Shown in pieces: positions 11,484 through 20,873 of a DNA stretch of 20,873 nucleotides; the first letter of the stretch is position 1, and each line of letters starts with the position of its first letter. Source of the stretch: a virus; the IMG/VR virus record IMGVR_UViG_3300000115_000207, positions 2,272-23,144 of that record. The stretch is one strand, 5' to 3'. The position numbers and the translations under genes were made by a program. The notes beneath the pieces were generated by a model. It made no database searches, was not told where the DNA came from, and saw only the letters and a list, made by a program, of their open reading frames with translations.

Positions 11484-14234
11484 ATGAAAGATAGATTTTC
11501 TTTACATATCCACAATGGGCAAGCTGATATCCTAGAGGCTATAACTGTACTCAGGAATGGCGGCACTGCTTCTCAATCTGGACTAGTTGGTATAACAAAT
11601 ATACAATACCAGCCAACGTCTAGTGCTATGCCTTCTGCAATATTGCCAGAAACTATCTTTAATGTTCAATCTTCTGGGTCTTGCGACATTAGGTTTAGTA
11701 GTCATGATTTTATCAGCAGAAGCACTATACAGCTTTTGTCAAATGGAAACTCCTTAGCTTCTGGCTTCCAAGTTTCCTACACACCCCTTGGCGATAACGC
11801 CTCACTAAACACGGACGACAATATACCCTCTTTTTCTTATTCAACATCTAATCCGGTTGTTGATTTTGACTTAATTAGACCTAGTGGCGGTAGCGGTGTA
11901 AAAATTGGGTTCCTATCAGTTAGCGAACAGGGTTACGTAGGCATTGGTACTACTTCGCACAAAATGCCAGATGGTTCACAAAGCAACTTATTTAGCCTCA
12001 ACGATCCATTAACTATTTCTCACAGCGGTCTTGCAAATAGCGGGACTATCGCTATACGAGAGCAAAACAGCACCCCTTCTTCCAAATCTGATTTTGGAAA
12101 GCTCTACGTTAAGCCAAAAATTACTGGAGACCAAACACAATCGCTATTCTTCTTAGACGATGGCGGCACAGAATTTGACATTATAAAAAGTCGATTCGAT
12201 TATTTTGACGGCACTTTATACGGTGACGTTTATGGAAATACATTTGGCGGTTGGTATTCTCCTCATGACAGATCAGAAAAATCAGATAGGCTCTGGAACA
12301 CAATTGTGGGCCATGCCGCTGGCTCTTTACTTACTGATGGCGACTCAAACACAATACTAGGGTATTTTGCTGGTAGCGGTATAAATAGCAACAAATCCAA
12401 TACGGTCATCGGAGCCACATCTTACACTCACGCAAGGCAGGGTGAAGGAAATGTTATACTAGGATTTAAAAACGCATCTCCCGCAGACCTTTCTTCAGAC
12501 ATAGTACAAGATAATTTCTCACGTAGTATTATTATTGGAACTGGTCTTTATGTTGGTGAATCGCCAGATGATGATACTTTAGCAATTGGTTACGGATCAA
12601 CACCCTTGGTCCTTGGCAAGCTAGGATCTTCTGCAAGATTTTTTAGTGTCAAGTCAACCCCCAGTGCTGACGCCCTTCTTTCTGTAGACGGCAAAGATCT
12701 AGTTTTTGGTTTTACAAATACGCTAGAAAATGACTACTACAACACTGATGATAGGCGACACAGTTTAATAACCATACAGGATACTTTGTCAGAACTAGAC
12801 AGTGAATCTATGCTGTCTTTGCGTTTTTCTAATCAAGATAACGTTAGTAAAACACTTGTCGATTTTGAACCTAGCGGTACAATAACTTCAACCGCTTCCT
12901 TCACTGAGCCCACATTTAGAACGCCCTATATGGCCGTTAGTGGTGATATAAGATGCTTAGGTGCACTTAGATTTTCTGACGGCAGCGTCATATCAACAGC
13001 TGCAAATGTAGACATTCTAGCTGCTACTGGTATAGCGAAAGTTACGGGAACAGCAGATGGCAATCACTATTTCCGACTACGTTACTTTGACACTCTTTCA
13101 GACGCCACCTCTTTAGTAAGCGGCCCTCTAGATACTTCTACAGCAACTTTAGCTCTTGAAGTTTATGACTCTACAGATACCGCATATCGAGTTGGCAAAA
13201 TAACTATGGATAGTTTTACAAACTATCTTGCTAGTGGTTATGCAGCTGCTGCCGAAAATTGTAATATGATTTTCACAGACAATAAGTATACATTCGACAC
13301 AACTAGAAATAGTAGAAGTGTTGTCATAGGGTGTGATACAGCCTCTTACGCTACGGGCTGGAAGAACTCTGTGATGATCGGAAATCAAGCTGGTTATGCG
13401 GCAACTATAGCTAATACAGCCTTAGAGACAGACACCTCTTGCGTTTTCATTGGCGACAAGGCTGGTTATGACGCAGACAATGCTGATAATTCAGTATTCT
13501 TAGGCAGCTCTGCTGGTAAAAATGCTGACGCAGCTGAAAACTCTATTTTCATAGGGAACAGTGCTGGTTTAAATTCTACAACCAGCTTTTCAATCGGGAT
13601 TGGAGACTTTGCTTTAGCTGGGTTCGATGATTCTGACGCGATTGAAGCAGGTACAAGAAATATAGAAATCGTCGCTGGTAAGCTAAACAACCAAAGGTTA
13701 ATGTATGAACTCGGCAACCTTAACGATAGACTGAACATACAAAATAGCATAGCTGGCTTTACAGAGCACAGATTTATATCTATTGGTGATGCACGACTTG
13801 CCCCAGAATGTCCTCTGGAAGCAAGAAGAAATGAAACCATAACAGGTCACAACACTACACCAGATATACAAGCTTGGTATAATGATAATTCAAGAATCGG
13901 TAGATTCAACGCTTCTGGCGACTTGGTAAGCACAATCATGCCTTCCGGCTATGAAGCGTCTGGAAACAGAATGACCAGTGAGGCTTGGTTTGGCAATATA
14001 GAGGGCTTTATGGTTGATTATGTCTACGCACCAGCGAGTTATGACACGCCAACTAGCGGTTTAATGACCGTTAAAGACTCCACGTTTACTTCAGCTGAAC
14101 AAATAATGATTGTAAATAGAGATACTCAATTAAGTATCCACGGTGCTGGTGCTACAGGTGGAGCAGCATACGTAATAGCAAGTAGGGTAAATGGAGAATT
14201 TAGACCAATATATGTAAGCTGCTCTGGAACTTAA
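11484..14234 (+). CDS. large tail fibre/adhesin with two YadA-head-like repeat blocks
   Basis: The 916-residue protein starts MKDRFSLHIHNGQADILEAI and is Ser/Gly/Thr/Asn-rich throughout. Residues 272-327 carry four NxxxG units (NTIVG, NTILG, NTVIG, NVILG) at exact 17-residue spacing. Residues 612-708 carry a second block (SVVIG, SVMIG, CVFIG, SVFLG, SIFIG, SIGIG), mostly at 17. Between them are fibre-type modules such as MAVSGDIRCLGALRFSDGS (483-501). The C-terminal part (ANSRIG-type beta strands, then SGLMTVKD and GEFRPIYVSCSG) looks like a distal tip or trimerisation region, but no intramolecular chaperone domain is visible. GAAAGGGA precedes ATG by about ten bases inside the end of the upstream gene. 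It is probably a partner or paralogue of the preceding fibre, with which it shares modules. Confidence 0.8.
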   Translation: MKDRFSLHIHNGQADILEAITVLRNGGTASQSGLVGITNIQYQPTSSAMPSAILPETIFNVQSSGSCDIRFSSHDFISRSTIQLLSNGNSLASGFQVSYTPLGDNASLNTDDNIPSFSYSTSNPVVDFDLIRPSGGSGVKIGFLSVSEQGYVGIGTTSHKMPDGSQSNLFSLNDPLTISHSGLANSGTIAIREQNSTPSSKSDFGKLYVKPKITGDQTQSLFFLDDGGTEFDIIKSRFDYFDGTLYGDVYGNTFGGWYSPHDRSEKSDRLWNTIVGHAAGSLLTDGDSNTILGYFAGSGINSNKSNTVIGATSYTHARQGEGNVILGFKNASPADLSSDIVQDNFSRSIIIGTGLYVGESPDDDTLAIGYGSTPLVLGKLGSSARFFSVKSTPSADALLSVDGKDLVFGFTNTLENDYYNTDDRRHSLITIQDTLSELDSESMLSLRFSNQDNVSKTLVDFEPSGTITSTASFTEPTFRTPYMAVSGDIRCLGALRFSDGSVISTAANVDILAATGIAKVTGTADGNHYFRLRYFDTLSDATSLVSGPLDTSTATLALEVYDSTDTAYRVGKITMDSFTNYLASGYAAAAENCNMIFTDNKYTFDTTRNSRSVVIGCDTASYATGWKNSVMIGNQAGYAATIANTALETDTSCVFIGDKAGYDADNADNSVFLGSSAGKNADAAENSIFIGNSAGLNSTTSFSIGIGDFALAGFDDSDAIEAGTRNIEIVAGKLNNQRLMYELGNLNDRLNIQNSIAGFTEHRFISIGDARLAPECPLEARRNETITGHNTTPDIQAWYNDNSRIGRFNASGDLVSTIMPSGYEASGNRMTSEAWFGNIEGFMVDYVYAPASYDTPTSGLMTVKDSTFTSAEQIMIVNRDTQLSIHGAGATGGAAYVIASRVNGEFRPIYVSCSGT
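12297..12464 (+). repeat. four-copy 17-residue repeat, block 1 of the second fibre
   Basis: Units begin at residues 272, 289, 306 and 323 (NTIVG, NTILG, NTVIG, NVILG), each 17 residues apart, the same period as in the neighbouring fibre. Confidence 0.85.
13317..13607 (+). repeat. 17-residue repeat, block 2 of the second fibre
   Basis: Units begin at residues 612, 629, 653, 670, 687 and 703. Spacing is 17 except for a 24-residue step after the second unit and 16 at the end. The A-G pair after each unit (QAGY, KAGY, SAGK, SAGL) also repeats. Confidence 0.8.
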
Positions 14235-14245
14235 GGAGACCTCTT

Positions 14246-15976
14246 ATGGGAAATTGTTGCTGCGGAGGGGGTGGCGAACCACCAATCAGGGGAGCTTGTT
14301 GCTTTTTGATACCACCCACTTTTGAAGAGTTTGGGTGCGAGGATAACGTTACGGCTAATGATTGTGCTGCCAAGATTGGCGGTAGGTTTTTTCCCGACCA
14401 AACATGCATCAATATTGACTGTGAAGAAGATCCACCATCTTCGGTTAAGTGTAACTTTGACACTCTTGAGTGTGGTGTAAATCCCCCACCTCCTTGGGAA
14501 TGGATTTCTAACTGTGCGGTATGTACGAGCACGACCAGTAGCACAACTACGACAGCTACAACTACTACAGAATCGCCAGAATGTGACTGTGAATGCTTAA
14601 CACAGGATTGCTGCTCTAATCCCGCTTGTGGATCTCTACCTGTGATAGATTGCACTGTGTGTCCCGGTAGAGAACCTTGTTATTGGGATTGCAATATTTG
14701 TGCTTGTGCAAACGGTGGCGATACCAGCGTATGTGGACCATGTGAAGGTGCTTGCTGCGAAACTTGCACCGATGGGCTAGGCAATGTCATTTCTCAAACT
14801 TGCACTGATGGTGTTTCTCACACATCTTGCAATGAATCCGCTGGATCATCAGGGTGCACCTATACGTTTGTGTATGGTGCCAGCTGTGATGATATAAACT
14901 GTGAAACTGTTACAACTACCAGCTACACAACTACCACCACCACTACCACTGAAAACCCATGCTCTAATGGTCTTCCGTGTTCTGCGGGAGATTCCTGTCC
15001 AGAAGGTTACAATTGTTCAGAAATACTTTGTTGCTGCGACGGTGTTCCAACTCGCGTAGTAGGCCAGCCGGGATGTTGCGTTTCGTGCCCAGAGGGTTGC
15101 GAGCCACCTGAACTTGGGGTTCCATGCACGAGTACCACTACAACCTTCGGGCCTACAACTGAAACAAGCACTAGCACGACAACTTCGTCGCCTACAGTAC
15201 CATGTCCATGCGAATACTTAGATTGCGGCTGCCCAACCGCTACCGACACTAAGCCGGAGTGTGCAGCTGGTCAATATTTTGATTGCGAACAATGCCAGTG
15301 TGTAGAAGATGACGGTGGCGGTGGACCCGACGATCCAGAGCCTCCCCCAATTATAATCTCTGAAGCTACAGCTGCTTCCTCCTGTAGTGATTCAGTATGT
15401 CAATATGAGTGGATGTACCCTCCGGGTTCTTGGGTTCAAACAGCAAGCTACTGCTCAGAGGGTTGTACGTGTCCTGATCCCCCAAGCTACCCAGCCGCCC
15501 AAGGTGTTACAGTTGAATTAGATTGTCAAGGAGAAGATACAACCACAAGCACCACAACAACCGCTGCCCCCACTACCACTACGACAGGAAGCCCTTGTTC
15601 ACAGTCAAATTGCACATATCAATGGACTGTCAGTCAGGGGTGGCAACAGCTTTCAAACAACTGTGCTGAGGGCTGCGAGTGTAGTGGACCGCCTTCGTCA
15701 GCTCCAAGTTCGGATGGCTACACTGAGGATGTTGCTTGTCAAGACATTGCTACCACGACCACCACTACCACAACTAGCAGTACTACCAGTAGCACTACCA
15801 CTACGTTAGATCCAGCTATAGATGGAGCCGACGACACAACTACGACTACCACCACTACCGGAACTACTACCACCACCACTGGAACCACTACTACTACCAC
15901 TGGAACTACAACCACCACTACAACCACCACTGCATCACCCGGAGGTGGAGGAGTTGGCGTGGGTGGAGGATACTAA
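14246..15976 (+). CDS. mucin-like protein: cysteine-rich modules joined by Thr/Ser tracts
   Basis: I know no characterised relative of this 576-residue protein as a whole. It has 67 cysteines and six Thr/Ser tracts (94-109, 222-235, 294-317, 432-448, 503-520, 531-562). It begins MGNCCCGGGG. Cysteine modules come in pairs: GACC-type at 17-59 and 169-219, CxC-type at 113-154 and 320-352, and a C-x4-C-x-Y-x-W type at 380-427 and 451-498; a single module spans 239-294. The last tract is 29 Thr in 32 residues, broken by three Gly, then comes a glycine-rich end (GGGGVGVGGGY). There is no signal peptide or membrane segment. AAGGAG precedes ATG. It lies between fibre genes and a glycosyltransferase, so I infer a virion surface protein whose Thr tracts may be O-glycosylated. 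Plain unmodified stalks are the alternative. Confidence 0.85.
   Translation: MGNCCCGGGGEPPIRGACCFLIPPTFEEFGCEDNVTANDCAAKIGGRFFPDQTCINIDCEEDPPSSVKCNFDTLECGVNPPPPWEWISNCAVCTSTTSSTTTTATTTTESPECDCECLTQDCCSNPACGSLPVIDCTVCPGREPCYWDCNICACANGGDTSVCGPCEGACCETCTDGLGNVISQTCTDGVSHTSCNESAGSSGCTYTFVYGASCDDINCETVTTTSYTTTTTTTTENPCSNGLPCSAGDSCPEGYNCSEILCCCDGVPTRVVGQPGCCVSCPEGCEPPELGVPCTSTTTTFGPTTETSTSTTTSSPTVPCPCEYLDCGCPTATDTKPECAAGQYFDCEQCQCVEDDGGGGPDDPEPPPIIISEATAASSCSDSVCQYEWMYPPGSWVQTASYCSEGCTCPDPPSYPAAQGVTVELDCQGEDTTTSTTTTAAPTTTTTGSPCSQSNCTYQWTVSQGWQQLSNNCAEGCECSGPPSSAPSSDGYTEDVACQDIATTTTTTTTSSTTSSTTTTLDPAIDGADDTTTTTTTTGTTTTTTGTTTTTTGTTTTTTTTTASPGGGGVGVGGGY
15383..15739 (+). repeat. tandem duplicated cysteine module in the mucin-like protein
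   Basis: Residues 380-427 and 451-498 share the spacing C-x4-C-x-Y-x-W ... W-x6-7-C-x3-C-x-C-x17-18-C, with EGC conserved in both (SEGCTC, AEGCEC). They are separated by a Thr tract, so module plus linker seems to have duplicated as a unit of about 71 residues. Confidence 0.8.
15836..15931 (+). repeat. terminal Thr tract, T(6-9) runs separated by single Gly
   Basis: The run order is T8-G-T6-G-T6-G-T9. All four Thr codons are mixed irregularly, so it is not a simple trinucleotide microsatellite. The opposite strand shows a Val-rich reading frame that is only its shadow. Confidence 0.85.
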
Positions 15977-16001
15977 AATTTTAAACTAAAGGAGAAAAAA
16001 G

Positions 16002-17165
16002 ATGGAACAAACTTTAACTATTGGCATGGCACACCACAATGATTACAACGGTGTTTATTTTTCTATACAAGACATAAGAAAGGAATTGATATTTAACGGT
16101 AGGCAAGACTTGTTAAAAAAAATAGAATTCGTTGTTGTAGAAAACGACCCTAATAGCAAACATGCCAACGAACTGAAAAATTTATCAAACCACATCCCTC
16201 AGATGAGAATCATAGATTTACACGACAAAAAGGGTACATCTGTTGCTAGAAATAAAATAATAGAAGAAGCAAAAACCAACTTTGTTTTAGTAATGGACTG
16301 CCACGTTTTGTTATGCCCTCTGGTTAAAACGCTAGAAAACTTATTTACGTTCATGGAGTACAACAAGGACACAAACGATCTTTACACAGGACCATTGGTG
16401 TATGATAATATGAGAATGATTTCCACGCACTTTAATGATGAGTGGAGAAGTCAAATGTGGGGCACTTGGGGAAATGCTTGGCAGTGTGTTTGCGAGTCTT
16501 TCAATTTTTCAATTATGAACAACGAAGGTAATTGCAAGTTTGTTTCAATGGTTGGTCAAAAACCTTTAGATAAATGCGAATATTGTGAAAGAGAGTTTCC
16601 AAAGATACCCTTCTCGCAACATGAAATTAAATTAAATGCAGATGGATACTCACAACTAGGTCAAAGGTCTGACAGTGAGCCTTTTGAAGTGTTTGGTCAA
16701 GGGCTAGGTGTATTCTTTACTAAGAAAAATACTTGGCTAGGATTTAATGATCATGCCAGAGGTTTTGGCGGCGAAGAGTGTTATATTCATGAAAAGTACA
16801 GGAAAGCTGGAAGAAAAACCATGTGCCTACCATTTTTAAAGTGGTTACATAGATTTGGCAGACCGGACGGTGTTAAGTATGAGCTAACTGTTGAGGGAAA
16901 AGTAAGAAACTACATTCTAGAGTTTAAAGAAATCGGTTTAGACATGGAACCCCTCAAAGAGCACTTTACCAAAAAATTTAATTTTCCATCCGATAAGTGG
17001 GATAGTTATATTGAGCAGGCAAATGCTATATACGCAGACGACGCTGAAACCACTCAAGTGTCTCCAGAAGATCTTGCCGAACAAATAAAAATTCTTGAAC
17101 AAAAACTTTTAAAAGCACAAAACAATAAAAAACCCTGTTCCTCAAAGAAATGTTGTAAAAGGTAA
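16002..17165 (+). CDS. GT-A glycosyltransferase with polypeptide-GalNAc-transferase-like (GT27-like) active-site pattern
   Basis: The 387-residue protein opens with a GT-A nucleotide-sugar fold (TLTIGMAHHNDYNGVYFSI, then IEFVVVENDP at 41-50). SVARNKIIEEA (80-90) leads to FVLVMDCHVLL (94-104), where D99-C-H101 is a DxH metal motif as in GT27. GFGGEECYIHEKYRKAGRK (254-272) carries a GGE motif at the place of the GT27 GGEN, and H283 (WLHRFGRP) matches the third metal ligand after it. Between MWGTWG (152-157) and VFGQGLGVFF (230-239) is an insertion with C178, C192 and C195. A coiled-coil helix (354-371) and a basic cysteine tail (PCSSKKCCKR) end it, and no lectin domain is present. I recognise related phage and bacterial proteins but recall no proven acceptor. 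AAAGGAG lies ahead of the start, 25 bases after the mucin-like gene. Confidence 0.87.
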   Translation: MEQTLTIGMAHHNDYNGVYFSIQDIRKELIFNGRQDLLKKIEFVVVENDPNSKHANELKNLSNHIPQMRIIDLHDKKGTSVARNKIIEEAKTNFVLVMDCHVLLCPLVKTLENLFTFMEYNKDTNDLYTGPLVYDNMRMISTHFNDEWRSQMWGTWGNAWQCVCESFNFSIMNNEGNCKFVSMVGQKPLDKCEYCEREFPKIPFSQHEIKLNADGYSQLGQRSDSEPFEVFGQGLGVFFTKKNTWLGFNDHARGFGGEECYIHEKYRKAGRKTMCLPFLKWLHRFGRPDGVKYELTVEGKVRNYILEFKEIGLDMEPLKEHFTKKFNFPSDKWDSYIEQANAIYADDAETTQVSPEDLAEQIKILEQKLLKAQNNKKPCSSKKCCKR

Positions 17166-17170
17166 TTAAC

Positions 17171-20100
17171 ATGAGTTTAGTAATTTCAGATAGAGTAAAA
17201 GAAACCACAACGACGCAGGGAACTGGTACAGTTACTCTTGGTGGTCCTCTTGGTGGCTTTCAATCATTTTCATCTGCGGTAGGTTCTGGAAACACAACCT
17301 ACTATGTTATAGAAAACGACACGCAGTTCGAGATAGGTATTGGAACGTGTAGCGGGGACTCTCTATCTAGAGACACTGTTTTGAGAAGCTCTAGCGGCGG
17401 CTCAAAAATATCATTATCGGGCGTGTCCTTCGTGTTCTGTGCTATACCGGCTGACAGGTCCATGTTCAAGGACGCAGATGGTAATTTTGTTATATCTGGA
17501 GATATTTCTATAGATGATTTATTTGCAGATGGTAACATTGTGTCCAAGGGTGATATTCACGCTAGTGGCGATATAAGCACTGATGGCAATATCAGCAGCG
17601 TTGATATATCAGCTGGCTCTCTCACTATTACAGAGTTAACCGCCAGTGGCAATGTGGTTGCTAATGATGTCATAGCTAGTGGACAAATTTTATCTAGCGG
17701 CTTGCTTACTTTAGCTAGAACAAATGCGGGTAGTTTCGTTCACGCCATTGTTGATGACAATAATCAAATTATTACCCTACATACAGATGGAAACACTTCC
17801 CCAGAGTGGAAGCTTGGCTTGAAAACCAACCCGTCTGAAACAGCCGCCCCTACAGTTGCCTACATAGTTGCCAAGGATGGTGATATAGGTTTTTACGCCA
17901 ATTCATCTAATCACCTAGATTTAGATCACGGACAAGGCTTTGTTGTAACAAACAAGGGCGATACCACCTTTGTTTCTTCGTCCGCTACAGGTAATTACGC
18001 TATTGGTAATACAGCGGCTTACCCGTCTTTTGTTGTAAAGGCGGCAGTGTCTCAAGCTGATAACATACAAGAATGGCAAAATAGCTCAGAGATAACTTTA
18101 GCTAATGTTTCCAGTGACGGCTCTATTCAAACTAGTGGTAGTATTAGTGCTAGTGGTGGAATCTTGTTTAATGATCTTGTGCCTAACTCCATTACAAACA
18201 AGTTATACAATGATGGTGGAACCCTGAAGTTTAGCGGTTCTTCTTTAGGTGGTGATGCTAAAAATACAGACGTGTTAGCAAACTCAGCTAGTGGCGTAGC
18301 AATTAGTGGTTACATTGATCATGTTGCTGGTTCAGGATCAGATCTAACTATATCTTCTGGTAACGCAAATTTAGCCCTTATTAGTGCTAACACAACCGAA
18401 ACGAGGGCTGCCGATGAAGCGAATGCTGCCAGTGGCGTTTCTATTAGTGGGTGGGCTGATTCTACCTTTCTAACCTCCGCACCCAACGCCAATGACGTTG
18501 AGGCCAATTCTGCTAGTGGTGTTGCTATTAGTGGTTGGGCCTCCCACACAATAGATGCAACCGGATTATACGTTAGGGGCTTGACCCTTGATAACACCAC
18601 AGAAATAAGATCTAACTCTGCGAGCGGTGTTGCGATTAGTGGTTGGTCTGCCTATAAAGTAGACGCTAATGCATCATTAATATCCGATAATACTATAAAC
18701 ATTTCAGTTTCTGGTAACAGGATTGAAACTAGACTAGAAGCAGATATTCGTGCGAACTCTGCAAGCGGTTCACTTCACGCTGCTGATATTTTAAGTAACT
18801 CTGCTAGTGGTGCTGCTATATCTGGCTACAATGCAGCTTACACAGATATTAAAGTTGCAGCATTAATTGGCGGTGCACCGGCTACTTTAGACACTTTAAA
18901 CGAAATAGCCGCCGCTATTAATGACGATGCAAATATTGCTACCACCTTAACAAACTCAATCTCTGCAAATACTACAGAAATTAGGGCAAACTCTGTCAGC
19001 GGTGTTGTTAACGCAGCAGACATCTTGGCAAACTCAGTGAGTGGAGTGGTTATATCAGGAATTGCAGAAGCCGCCTCGCCCACCGGTACACCAAGCGGTG
19101 TTGCGTTCTTTGGCAATGATGGCCTTATAACAACAGACACACCTTTTTATTACGGCGGTTATGGTGATCTGCACATAGAAAGTATATTCTCATCAAGCGG
19201 TATAAAAATATTTAGTTCTGGAGATATTGCAGATACTCACAGCGAATACTTCAAAATTGACGCCTCTACAACAAGATTCAATATTGGAACATTCGGAGAT
19301 GGCGATGGTGATGGTCCTGATTTATATATTTACAGAGATGGTGCGTCTCATCTTGAGCTGAATAGTGCTGGCACCCAAGTCATTAGACCTCTAATACCAA
19401 ACGTTGACGGTAGTCCAAATATAGGTAGATCAGATTTAAGATTTGGAACTGTTTATTCTTGGAATTTAGATGCAGAATCTCATAGCGCCACAGGAACCCC
19501 ACTCAAGGTTAAAGGCGCAGCAGCTCAGAGTGCCAATTTGACAGAGTGGAAAGATAGCTCAGACCAAGTTTTAGCAAAGATAGACTCAAGTGGTGTCTTT
19601 ACTCAAATCCTTGGTTCTAGTGGAACTGATGTATCTAGATTAATATTTGGAGATAGCGAGAGGGGGCAACTTTCCGAAGACGGGTATGTGACCGGTGTTT
19701 GGCTAGACTATGAAGACGGCTCTGCATATAATAACGGGGGGTTGATTTTTGGAACGTGGTACAACACTAGTAAAACAGCAAAAACTTACCTACAGGTAGA
19801 AAGAGATTTTATTAGATTTGAAGTAGGGAATGGCTTAAGACTTACCACCACATCAACCGCAACTAGAATAAATGGTAATTTGGAGCCTTACAGTTCGCTG
19901 ACTAACAACTTAGGAAAGTTGAATGCACCTTGGTTAAATATATATGGGCAAAATTTTCACGTCAGCGGTATTCTCTACGCTTCCGGTGACCCCGGAACCA
20001 ATGGTCAAGTTCTAACTTCTACCGCAGACGGTATCGAGTGGCGAGACGCAAATACTCTAGCTGGACTTAGTGGCACACCAAGCGGCGTGTCTTTCTTTGG

Positions 20101-20873
20101 TGGAGACGGGCTTCTTACTGATGACTCTGGATTTATCGTAGATTCTGGCTACGGCCAAATACAAGTTGGTATTAACGCCACTCCTTCTGATATAAACAAC
20201 CCTAACAACACTTTTAATGTATTTAGTAACGAATACAACCAATTGGCAAAAATTACACTGAAAAATAAAGCTCGTGGAAATACAACACTTGATATTGTTG
20301 CTACATCTGGCGGTAGAAGTGCTAGTACTACATATACAGTGGGGTCGCATGATTGGTATGTAGGACAATTGACAGCTAGCATGGCTGGTCTTGGCAACCG
20401 ATTTGTTGTCGCTTCTTACGATCTGGATAGCTCTAGATCTATTATAATGGATAGTAATGGTTACGTTGTTCTTGGAGGTACTGGTCCTCAAGCTAAACTT
20501 CATGTTAACAATACTCTTTTGGCAACCTATCCCGTAAGTATCTTTAGAGGGATGGCGGCACAAGCTGGTAATTTGACAGAGTGGCAGGCCAGCGACGGAA
20601 CAGTAGTCGCTATGGTTAAGCCTGATGGTAGTATAGCTAGTAGTGGGGATATTAGTGCTAGTGGTAATATCACCGCTAATGGTAACATTGGTATAGGAGC
20701 CTCTAATCCTACAGATAGATTAGTTGTTGCAGGCAACTTAAAAACGACCCACATCGGATATACAACGAATGCTTTCAGAGTAACACATAATTCTAATGAC
20801 ACATACTTAAGTTTATATAAAAGATCAGATCAAAGCAATGCTGCGGTTAAGATTATAACCGCAGGCGAGTCAG
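17171..20873 (+). CDS. giant tail fibre, N-terminal 1234 residues (3' end outside window)
   Basis: The frame opens at ATG 17171 (AAAAGG eight bases before it, inside the end of the glycosyltransferase gene) and stays open to the window edge. The N-terminus (SDRVKETTTTQGTGTVTLGGPLGGFQSF, then YYVIENDTQFEIGIGT, DTVLRSS) is the attachment domain found at the start of many aquatic-phage tail fibres. A long SG-rich shaft follows, with SGDISxxGNI units (about 109-160). Then come eight NSASGVAISGW-type repeats (371-631), two TPSGVxFFGxDGLxTxD junctions (about 640 and 969), three A-A-x-Q-x-A-N-L-T-E-W modules (about 291, 782, 1129) and LGxxxxxW beta modules (NNLGKLNAPWLNIYG). No lytic or chaperone domain is reached. 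It probably forms the long host-recognition fibre. With the upstream gene it may be co-transcribed. Confidence 0.88.
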   Translation, partial: MSLVISDRVKETTTTQGTGTVTLGGPLGGFQSFSSAVGSGNTTYYVIENDTQFEIGIGTCSGDSLSRDTVLRSSSGGSKISLSGVSFVFCAIPADRSMFKDADGNFVISGDISIDDLFADGNIVSKGDIHASGDISTDGNISSVDISAGSLTITELTASGNVVANDVIASGQILSSGLLTLARTNAGSFVHAIVDDNNQIITLHTDGNTSPEWKLGLKTNPSETAAPTVAYIVAKDGDIGFYANSSNHLDLDHGQGFVVTNKGDTTFVSSSATGNYAIGNTAAYPSFVVKAAVSQADNIQEWQNSSEITLANVSSDGSIQTSGSISASGGILFNDLVPNSITNKLYNDGGTLKFSGSSLGGDAKNTDVLANSASGVAISGYIDHVAGSGSDLTISSGNANLALISANTTETRAADEANAASGVSISGWADSTFLTSAPNANDVEANSASGVAISGWASHTIDATGLYVRGLTLDNTTEIRSNSASGVAISGWSAYKVDANASLISDNTINISVSGNRIETRLEADIRANSASGSLHAADILSNSASGAAISGYNAAYTDIKVAALIGGAPATLDTLNEIAAAINDDANIATTLTNSISANTTEIRANSVSGVVNAADILANSVSGVVISGIAEAASPTGTPSGVAFFGNDGLITTDTPFYYGGYGDLHIESIFSSSGIKIFSSGDIADTHSEYFKIDASTTRFNIGTFGDGDGDGPDLYIYRDGASHLELNSAGTQVIRPLIPNVDGSPNIGRSDLRFGTVYSWNLDAESHSATGTPLKVKGAAAQSANLTEWKDSSDQVLAKIDSSGVFTQILGSSGTDVSRLIFGDSERGQLSEDGYVTGVWLDYEDGSAYNNGGLIFGTWYNTSKTAKTYLQVERDFIRFEVGNGLRLTTTSTATRINGNLEPYSSLTNNLGKLNAPWLNIYGQNFHVSGILYASGDPGTNGQVLTSTADGIEWRDANTLAGLSGTPSGVSFFGGDGLLTDDSGFIVDSGYGQIQVGINATPSDINNPNNTFNVFSNEYNQLAKITLKNKARGNTTLDIVATSGGRSASTTYTVGSHDWYVGQLTASMAGLGNRFVVASYDLDSSRSIIMDSNGYVVLGGTGPQAKLHVNNTLLATYPVSIFRGMAAQAGNLTEWQASDGTVVAMVKPDGSIASSGDISASGNITANGNIGIGASNPTDRLVVAGNLKTTHIGYTTNAFRVTHNSNDTYLSLYKRSDQSNAAVKIITAGES
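18281..19063 (+). repeat. eight NSASGVAISGW-type repeats in the giant fibre
   Basis: Copies start at 18281, 18422, 18506, 18614, 18755, 18797, 18989 and 19031. Spacing is irregular (14 to 64 codons), and the unit is about 11 residues (33 bases). The pair at 18755/18797 and the pair at 18989/19031 are themselves copies of each other, 234 bases apart, showing a larger duplication (IRANSxSGxxxAADILxNSxSGxxISG). Confidence 0.8.
19078..20128 (+). repeat. duplicated fibre junction module TPSGVxFFGxDGLxTxD
   Basis: Two copies start at about 19085 and 20072, exactly 987 bases apart. Each is followed by a Gly-Tyr-Gly turn (GGYGDLHIES, DSGYGQIQVG) and then different sequence. They mark the borders of large interchangeable shaft segments. 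Confidence 0.65.

Follow-up and report, generated by a model that had tools for sequence, protein, structure and literature searches.

The initiation of mucin-type O-glycosylation is commonly regarded as eukaryotic, and in family GT27, the polypeptide N-acetylgalactosamine (GalNAc) transferases, a C-terminal ricin-type (beta-trefoil) lectin domain is usual; it is only now becoming recognised that phage enzymes glycosylate virions. In a survey of glycosyltransferases with a GT-A fold, DxH in place of DxD was given for GT27 and GT60, and a C-terminal His was described as binding the metal in polypeptide GalNAc-transferases (PMC7185993); Toxoplasma GalNAc-T3 uses D276, H278 and H414, and Toxoplasma CST1 carries a threonine (Thr)-rich tract beside cysteine (Cys)-rich modules (PMC11074326). 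Among phages, glycosyltransferases encoded by mycobacteriophages were found to glycosylate virion proteins (Freeman et al., 2023, as cited in PMC12619734 and PMC10955285), in the account of the citing papers at the C-termini of capsid and tail-tube subunits. In the present study a stretch of 20,873 nucleotides (hereafter the window) from a marine phage was analysed, which covers positions 2,272 to 23,144 of the IMG/VR virus record IMGVR_UViG_3300000115_000207 (23,144 bases) and in which the gene for a Cys-rich protein with long Thr tracts is followed by that for a GT27-like glycosyltransferase.

We consider it probable that this enzyme is a polypeptide O-glycosyltransferase acting on the Thr and serine (Ser) tracts of the adjacent protein, which occupies a slot among the tail and fibre genes. 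The locus resembles the mycobacteriophage system, as described in the citing papers, in that a phage-encoded glycosyltransferase would modify a virion protein, and differs from it in the GT27-like predicted fold of the enzyme and in the dedicated Thr-tract, Cys-rich slot protein. With GT27 (GALNT2, Toxoplasma GalNAc-T3) it shares the best GT-A match in the PDB as well as the DxH and C-terminal His ligands, and with CST1 the position of a Thr-rich tract beside Cys-rich modules in the candidate acceptor. The parts of the two genes are, in window coordinates:

14233 to 14238, plus strand: AAGGAG ribosome site of the mucin-like gene (sequence)
14246 to 15976, plus strand: mucin-like protein, 576 amino acids, Cys-rich modules linked by Thr, Ser and proline (Pro) tracts (open reading frame, composition and run statistics)
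14291 to 14422, plus strand: Cys module A (GACC...C...C...C...C), close to the N-terminus (motif collection, sequences)
14927 to 14950, plus strand: run of 8 Thr (run statistics)
15383 to 15526, plus strand: Cys module B, copy 1 (C..C.W...W...C...C.C..P..C) (motif collection, alignment)
15596 to 15739, plus strand: Cys module B, copy 2, modelled as a small beta fold with a predicted local distance difference test score (pLDDT) of 91.8 (alignment, model)
15752 to 15931, plus strand: C-terminal Thr-rich region with Thr runs of 8, 4, 8, 6, 6 and 9 (run statistics)
15989 to 15994, plus strand: AAGGAG ribosome site of the glycosyltransferase gene (sequence)
16002 to 17165, plus strand: GT27-like GT-A glycosyltransferase, 387 amino acids (Pfam PF00535, E=1.1e-7; model; best PDB fold a polypeptide GalNAc-transferase)
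16296 to 16304, plus strand: D99-C-H101, the DxH metal motif (D and H invariant in 32 homologues)
16767 to 16775, plus strand: G256-G257-E258 (invariant in 32 homologues)
16848 to 16850, plus strand: H283, the C-terminal metal-ligand His (invariant in 32 homologues)

The pattern of DxH, GGE and a downstream His, which the original prediction had read in the enzyme, was borne out by comparison with 32 homologues, since D14, D99, H101, G256-G257-E258, H283 and several Trp do not vary down to 38% identity, and E258 and H283 lie 25 residues apart in 32/32, the same spacing as that between E334 and H359 of GALNT2. In Pfam, 32/32 aligned relatives matched the generic family-2 glycosyltransferase PF00535 only, and relatives of the enzyme were found neither in INPHARED phages nor in PHROGs. 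Sequence searches of solved structures (phmmer/hmmsearch against the PDB) returned generic GT2 enzymes alone and missed GT27, so that a comparison of folds was needed. With the model of the enzyme (pLDDT 91.3) as query, ranks 1-29 of VIA-align against the PDB were all polypeptide GalNAc-transferases (Z 23.6 to 19.7), headed by GALNT2 (6nqt; Z 23.6, 3.0 Å over 267 residues), and the next families were represented by GlfT2 (Z 18.0) and RmlT (Z 17.9); Foldseek agreed, its top rows being polypeptide GalNAc-transferases throughout (E 7.9e-13).

The enzyme differs from GT27 in several aspects. It ends in a predicted helix about 45 residues past the catalytic domain, with no match to a ricin-type lectin domain; it has GGEE where the GALNT-type counterpart is GGEN; and it would be made in the bacterial cytoplasm. 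Furthermore, a Cys-containing insert stretches the distance from DxH to GGE in two clades, that of the enzymes encoded beside the slot protein (the cis clade) and that of siphoviruses, and members without it display 97-109 residues between the two motifs, near the 108 of GALNT2. Family GT60 (Skp1 N-acetylglucosamine-transferase type), which occurs in prokaryotes and protists, has DxH, as the enzyme does, and belongs together with GT27 to a retaining GT-A clade (PMC7185993); no GT60-type Pfam family appeared among the matches of the 32 members at E up to 1, a search in which the HMMER filters drop weak hits. Judged by the model, the enzyme is GT27-like in fold and metal site, and because the lectin domain is lacking and the structure alignment with GALNT2 gives 12-14% identity, strict membership of GT27 is not proven; the enzyme type named in the original prediction stands in this wider sense. 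GalNAc as the sugar is likewise not implied by the predicted fold alone.

The 576-residue protein upstream contains 116 Thr, 67 Cys and 53 Ser, and is mucin-like in that Thr/Ser/Pro tracts above chance are joined to Cys-rich domains. It displays twelve Thr runs of at least 4, the longest of 9, compared with a mean of 3.7 and a maximum of 8 for the longest run in 2000 shuffles of its residues. The codons of the runs are mixed (ACC/ACT/ACA/ACG), identical codons stand side by side less often than expected (11/43 vs 15.2), and the tracts are therefore maintained at the protein level and do not represent a DNA microsatellite. A tandem repeat does lie within the Thr-rich region (15845-15930), where only degenerate 21-bp repeats were seen, near the 3' end. 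No match to the protein was found in Pfam, PHROG or INPHARED, nor any PDB match to the predicted fold of Cys module B. Both reading frames, the Thr/Ser tracts and Cys modules of the first and a gap of 25 bases between the two (15977-16001) lie as the original prediction had described them, and its signs of apparent co-expression were found as well: AAGGAG precedes both genes, and no terminator-like site lies between the two reading frames, the sole one detected (14365-14384) being inside the first.

The survey of phage genomes that had been proposed came out, like the comparison of folds, in favour of the original prediction: strong co-occurrence of the enzyme with Thr-tract proteins was seen again in unrelated phages, in bacteria, and also where adjacency has been lost. 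With enzyme clusters defined at 80% identity (n=32), an open reading frame with a Thr tract was found at most 150 bp from the enzyme in 22/32 clusters by script and in 3 more by inspection; when three clusters that had been found via Thr runs were left out, the enzyme directly adjoined such a reading frame in 23/29. At least three unrelated phage lineages are spanned, and a large set of loci (L028-L045, L319, L322, L330, L170, L200, L217) shares, as far as tested, the enzyme alone with the window; in L034 and L170 the cassette lies two or three genes after the tape-measure gene. When viral loci were divided into 1-kb bins, Thr tracts occurred in 69/234 bins within 3 kb of the enzyme vs 2/145 beyond (p=3e-14). 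Some enzymes of this set of loci are fused to a methyltransferase-like domain (L044 and L217 above the Pfam cut-off, L029 weakly). As a separate observation, a C-terminal extension of about 300 residues is present in L029, L031-L039, L044, L170 and L217, methyltransferase-like where Pfam resolves it (Methyltransf_24, weakly RMNT_CmcI); it may methylate the added sugar.

In the lineage of the window itself the cassette is framed by two genes:

11484 to 14234, plus strand: structural/tail-spike-like gene, whose 3' end marks the cassette slot (PHROG tail spike match; order kept in relatives)
17171 to 20873, running past the window end, plus strand: giant tail-fibre-like open reading frame (PHROG tail/fibre matches)

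The first of these was too variable for a scan of the collection, which found none, and relatives were therefore collected via terminase and major capsid protein. In these relatives two arrangements occur in the slot after the tail-spike-like gene: a Thr-tract protein rich in Cys with the enzyme behind it, or an unrelated protein of 750-1677 amino acids that is followed directly by the fibre, the enzyme being absent (L142-L146, L149), so the giant fibre reading frame comes after the slot in relatives without the enzyme too. Slot proteins poor in Thr mostly go without the enzyme. The contents of the slot are exchanged within this one phage lineage. Cys module A recurs in the partner proteins of relatives, some of them without Thr runs. 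Seven Thr-tract contigs without the enzyme had been considered as counter-examples and were dropped, since all end inside the Thr-tract reading frame and are uninformative on the absence of the enzyme. Apart from this, one subclade (L008, L012, L013, L018, L019) carries the enzyme between two Thr-tract proteins; Hint/intein-like domains were seen in Thr-tract or adjacent slot proteins (L147 2770-5127, L001 3352-5949 and, by eye, L012 2916-5954); and slot proteins with RCC1 and dockerin-like repeats occur in L151 (12226-15426, by Pfam) and L026 (3299-5995, by eye).

Cellular homologues were gathered by enzyme similarity alone, and many contain an HprK-related kinase A or PqqD domain as a fusion. 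Their neighbours are short proteins with a Tat-like leader (RRxxxK...W-K-P-V-V...PAHA) and then a Thr/Ser/Pro tail, in which runs of up to 25 were found, and which often come in two or three copies (L205, L207, L209, L212, L216, L224). Thr tracts were present in 27/350 of the 1-kb bins within 3 kb vs 0/541 at 3 to 9 kb (p=6e-12, with bins that are not wholly independent), and they are the sole visible feature that the bacterial partner scaffold has in common with the phage proteins, Cys module A being absent from it by eye. The loci resemble clusters for ribosomally synthesised and post-translationally modified peptides (RiPPs; lasso peptides etc.), with their PqqD chaperones and HprK-related kinases, in that such domains are fused or adjacent to the enzyme and short leader-bearing precursors lie nearby; they differ in that a Thr/Ser/Pro tail would form the core and a GT27-like glycosyltransferase would modify it, and the cellular loci yielded neither a lasso cyclase nor any known RiPP class. 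They look like an undescribed peptide-glycosylation cluster. Thr-tail proteins in one to three copies were noted at L166 and L206 as well as at the loci named above, and in several of all these loci the enzyme is fused to an HprK-related kinase domain.

Adjacency was lost in freshwater-type relatives (L397, L409, L411, L414, L416, L429), which possess a Thr-tract slot protein and no enzyme within 10 kb. As these truly lack an adjacent enzyme, whole contigs were searched, and a distant locus was found, situated among replication genes (gene identities by eye). An enzyme of this family was present elsewhere in each of the long contigs G069, G070 and G072, and in G088 (126 kb, Thr-tract) it lay at the distant locus, as predicted before the search; of the four new long contigs, the Thr-poor G087 and G090 are without it, as is the Thr-rich G089 (90 kb), which does not cover the enzyme locus. 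Among contigs that show the locus, the Thr-rich ones have the enzyme there (G069, G070, G072, G088) or beside the slot (G004), the Thr-poor G012 and G087 are without it, and the Thr-poor or weak G039 and G029 have it. In a tree of 57 rows the distant enzymes formed a clade of their own (100/100), apart from the cis clade (100/100), so that one phage lineage has been paired with two enzyme clades. At L472-L475, from freshwater-type relatives, a glycosyltransferase of the enzyme family without the insert lies at a conserved place among replication genes.

Several observations weigh against the Thr tracts as the acceptor of the enzyme. The enzyme is kept beside partners without Thr runs in L025-L027 (one cluster, 898 amino acids) and L151 (1066 amino acids), a Thr run thus being no strict requirement, and the partners of L009 and L020 have merely weak Thr tracts; the claim of the original prediction that the Thr tracts are the acceptor is hence favoured by strong co-occurrence and qualified by these few partners. 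Thr tracts in turn do not need the enzyme, since among 120 sampled viral contigs with Thr runs of 10, many of them fragments, it was present in just 3. Under strict counting, 47/71 cellular loci are without a Thr tract within 3 kb, several of them possessing weaker Ser/Thr tails, and the table of long contigs is small (13 contigs of at least 80 kb; Fisher p=0.10 under strict counting, p=0.03 if G029 is taken as Thr-rich). Finally, the second enzyme site among replication genes would suit DNA modification as well.

Part of this could be explained if the enzyme were a polypeptide glycosyltransferase with its main acceptor elsewhere among the phage proteins, in the giant fibre or at Ser/Thr residues of the Cys modules, while the Thr tracts served as flexible linkers only. 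The enzyme gene has the Thr-tract gene on one side and the fibre gene on the other, the partners in L025-L027 and L151 possess Cys module A and no Thr runs, and many viral contigs have Thr-run proteins and no enzyme. However, the fibre adjoins the slot in the enzyme-less L142-L146 and L149 also, and all that the bacterial partners share is the Thr-rich tail, borne by an entirely different scaffold in which Cys module A is absent by eye, which makes such an acceptor unlikely. An enzyme that glycosylates DNA or a host surface polymer (lipopolysaccharide, LPS, or capsule), with the Thr-tract neighbour present by chance or hitch-hiking, would find its models in the well-known phage glycosyltransferases that modify DNA or serotype (PMC12619734), and would fit its place in the replication-gene block of freshwater-type relatives (by eye) and the GT25-like LPS domain fused to the enzyme in L173. 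Yet the predicted fold and the DxH motif indicate the protein-acceptor families GT27/GT60, the PqqD and HprK-related domains fused or adjacent in bacteria are peptide-handling parts, and the coupling with Thr tracts recurs in unrelated phages and bacteria, so hitch-hiking is no explanation; this assignment is regarded as quite improbable, though less so for the enzyme among the replication genes. That the tracts are a compositional by-product of slippage-prone ACN repeats next to an unrelated, ordinary family-2 glycosyltransferase, as the generic PF00535 match and the degenerate 21-bp tandem repeat in part of the tract might suggest, can hardly be upheld and is already contradicted by the co-occurrence data, with run codons mixed and identical neighbours fewer than expected, distance enrichment extreme (viral p=3e-14, cellular p=6e-12) and Thr-poor slot proteins mostly without the enzyme.

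Under the preferred reading, glycosylation of the neighbour's Thr/Ser tracts, the enzyme would act in the cytoplasm as a metal-dependent GT-A glycosyltransferase in the manner of a polypeptide GalNAc-transferase and, with a nucleotide sugar as donor, would glycosylate Thr/Ser of the long Thr tracts, for which Thr8 and TTTTTGTTTTT are candidate acceptor peptides. The neighbour would fill the tail/fibre slot and become a mucin-like glycoprotein, in which Cys-rich or disulfide modules would be spaced by stiff, glycosylated, protease-resistant linkers; it is probably exposed on the virion tail, where it may be of benefit to the phage and may form the coat or stalk of the original prediction.

Phage virion glycosylation is the known kind of system to which the pair would belong, and there is a real chance of a wider prokaryotic mucin-type system. 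The recurrent pairing suggests a mucin-like sugar-coating system outside animals, and we see an even chance that prokaryotic mucin-type O-glycosylation exists as one GT27-like family with Thr-tract acceptors, comprising exchangeable phage tail/fibre cassettes, some with the enzyme fused to a methyltransferase-like domain, and bacterial HprK-related-kinase/PqqD modules that decorate short secreted Thr-tail proteins, and being kin to, possibly older than, animal mucin initiation. Searches of the open-licence literature turned up no account of a phage pair of GT27-like enzyme and mucin-like protein, nor of the Thr-tail clusters of bacteria. If true, a compact pair of enzyme and acceptor in phages, with culturable bacterial relatives (Oricola indica JL-62, L206, or Labrys, for example), would offer a testable origin for GT27-like chemistry, a novel type of virion surface and possibly a tool for dense O-glycosylation in bacteria. 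Since the pairing was reached by several routes (cis cassette, distant glycosyltransferase locus, glycosyltransferase-methyltransferase fusion, bacterial Thr-tail clusters), it lends itself well to study as a natural experiment.

With regard to the genome setting, PHROG matches in the window (terminase, tail/fibre, head protein) are those of a tailed phage, and the terminase shows less than 35% identity to anything among the INPHARED matches listed. Positions 1-384 encode the C-terminal portion of a GDP-mannose 4,6-dehydratase-like protein, whose gene extends upstream in the contig; as a clue to the donor sugar it was dropped, since its family is found in relatives both with and without the enzyme and is therefore uninformative on the sugar. 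Immediately upstream of the terminase gene, at 888-2044, an ERCC4-type nuclease and a ClpP-like protease were recognised by eye.

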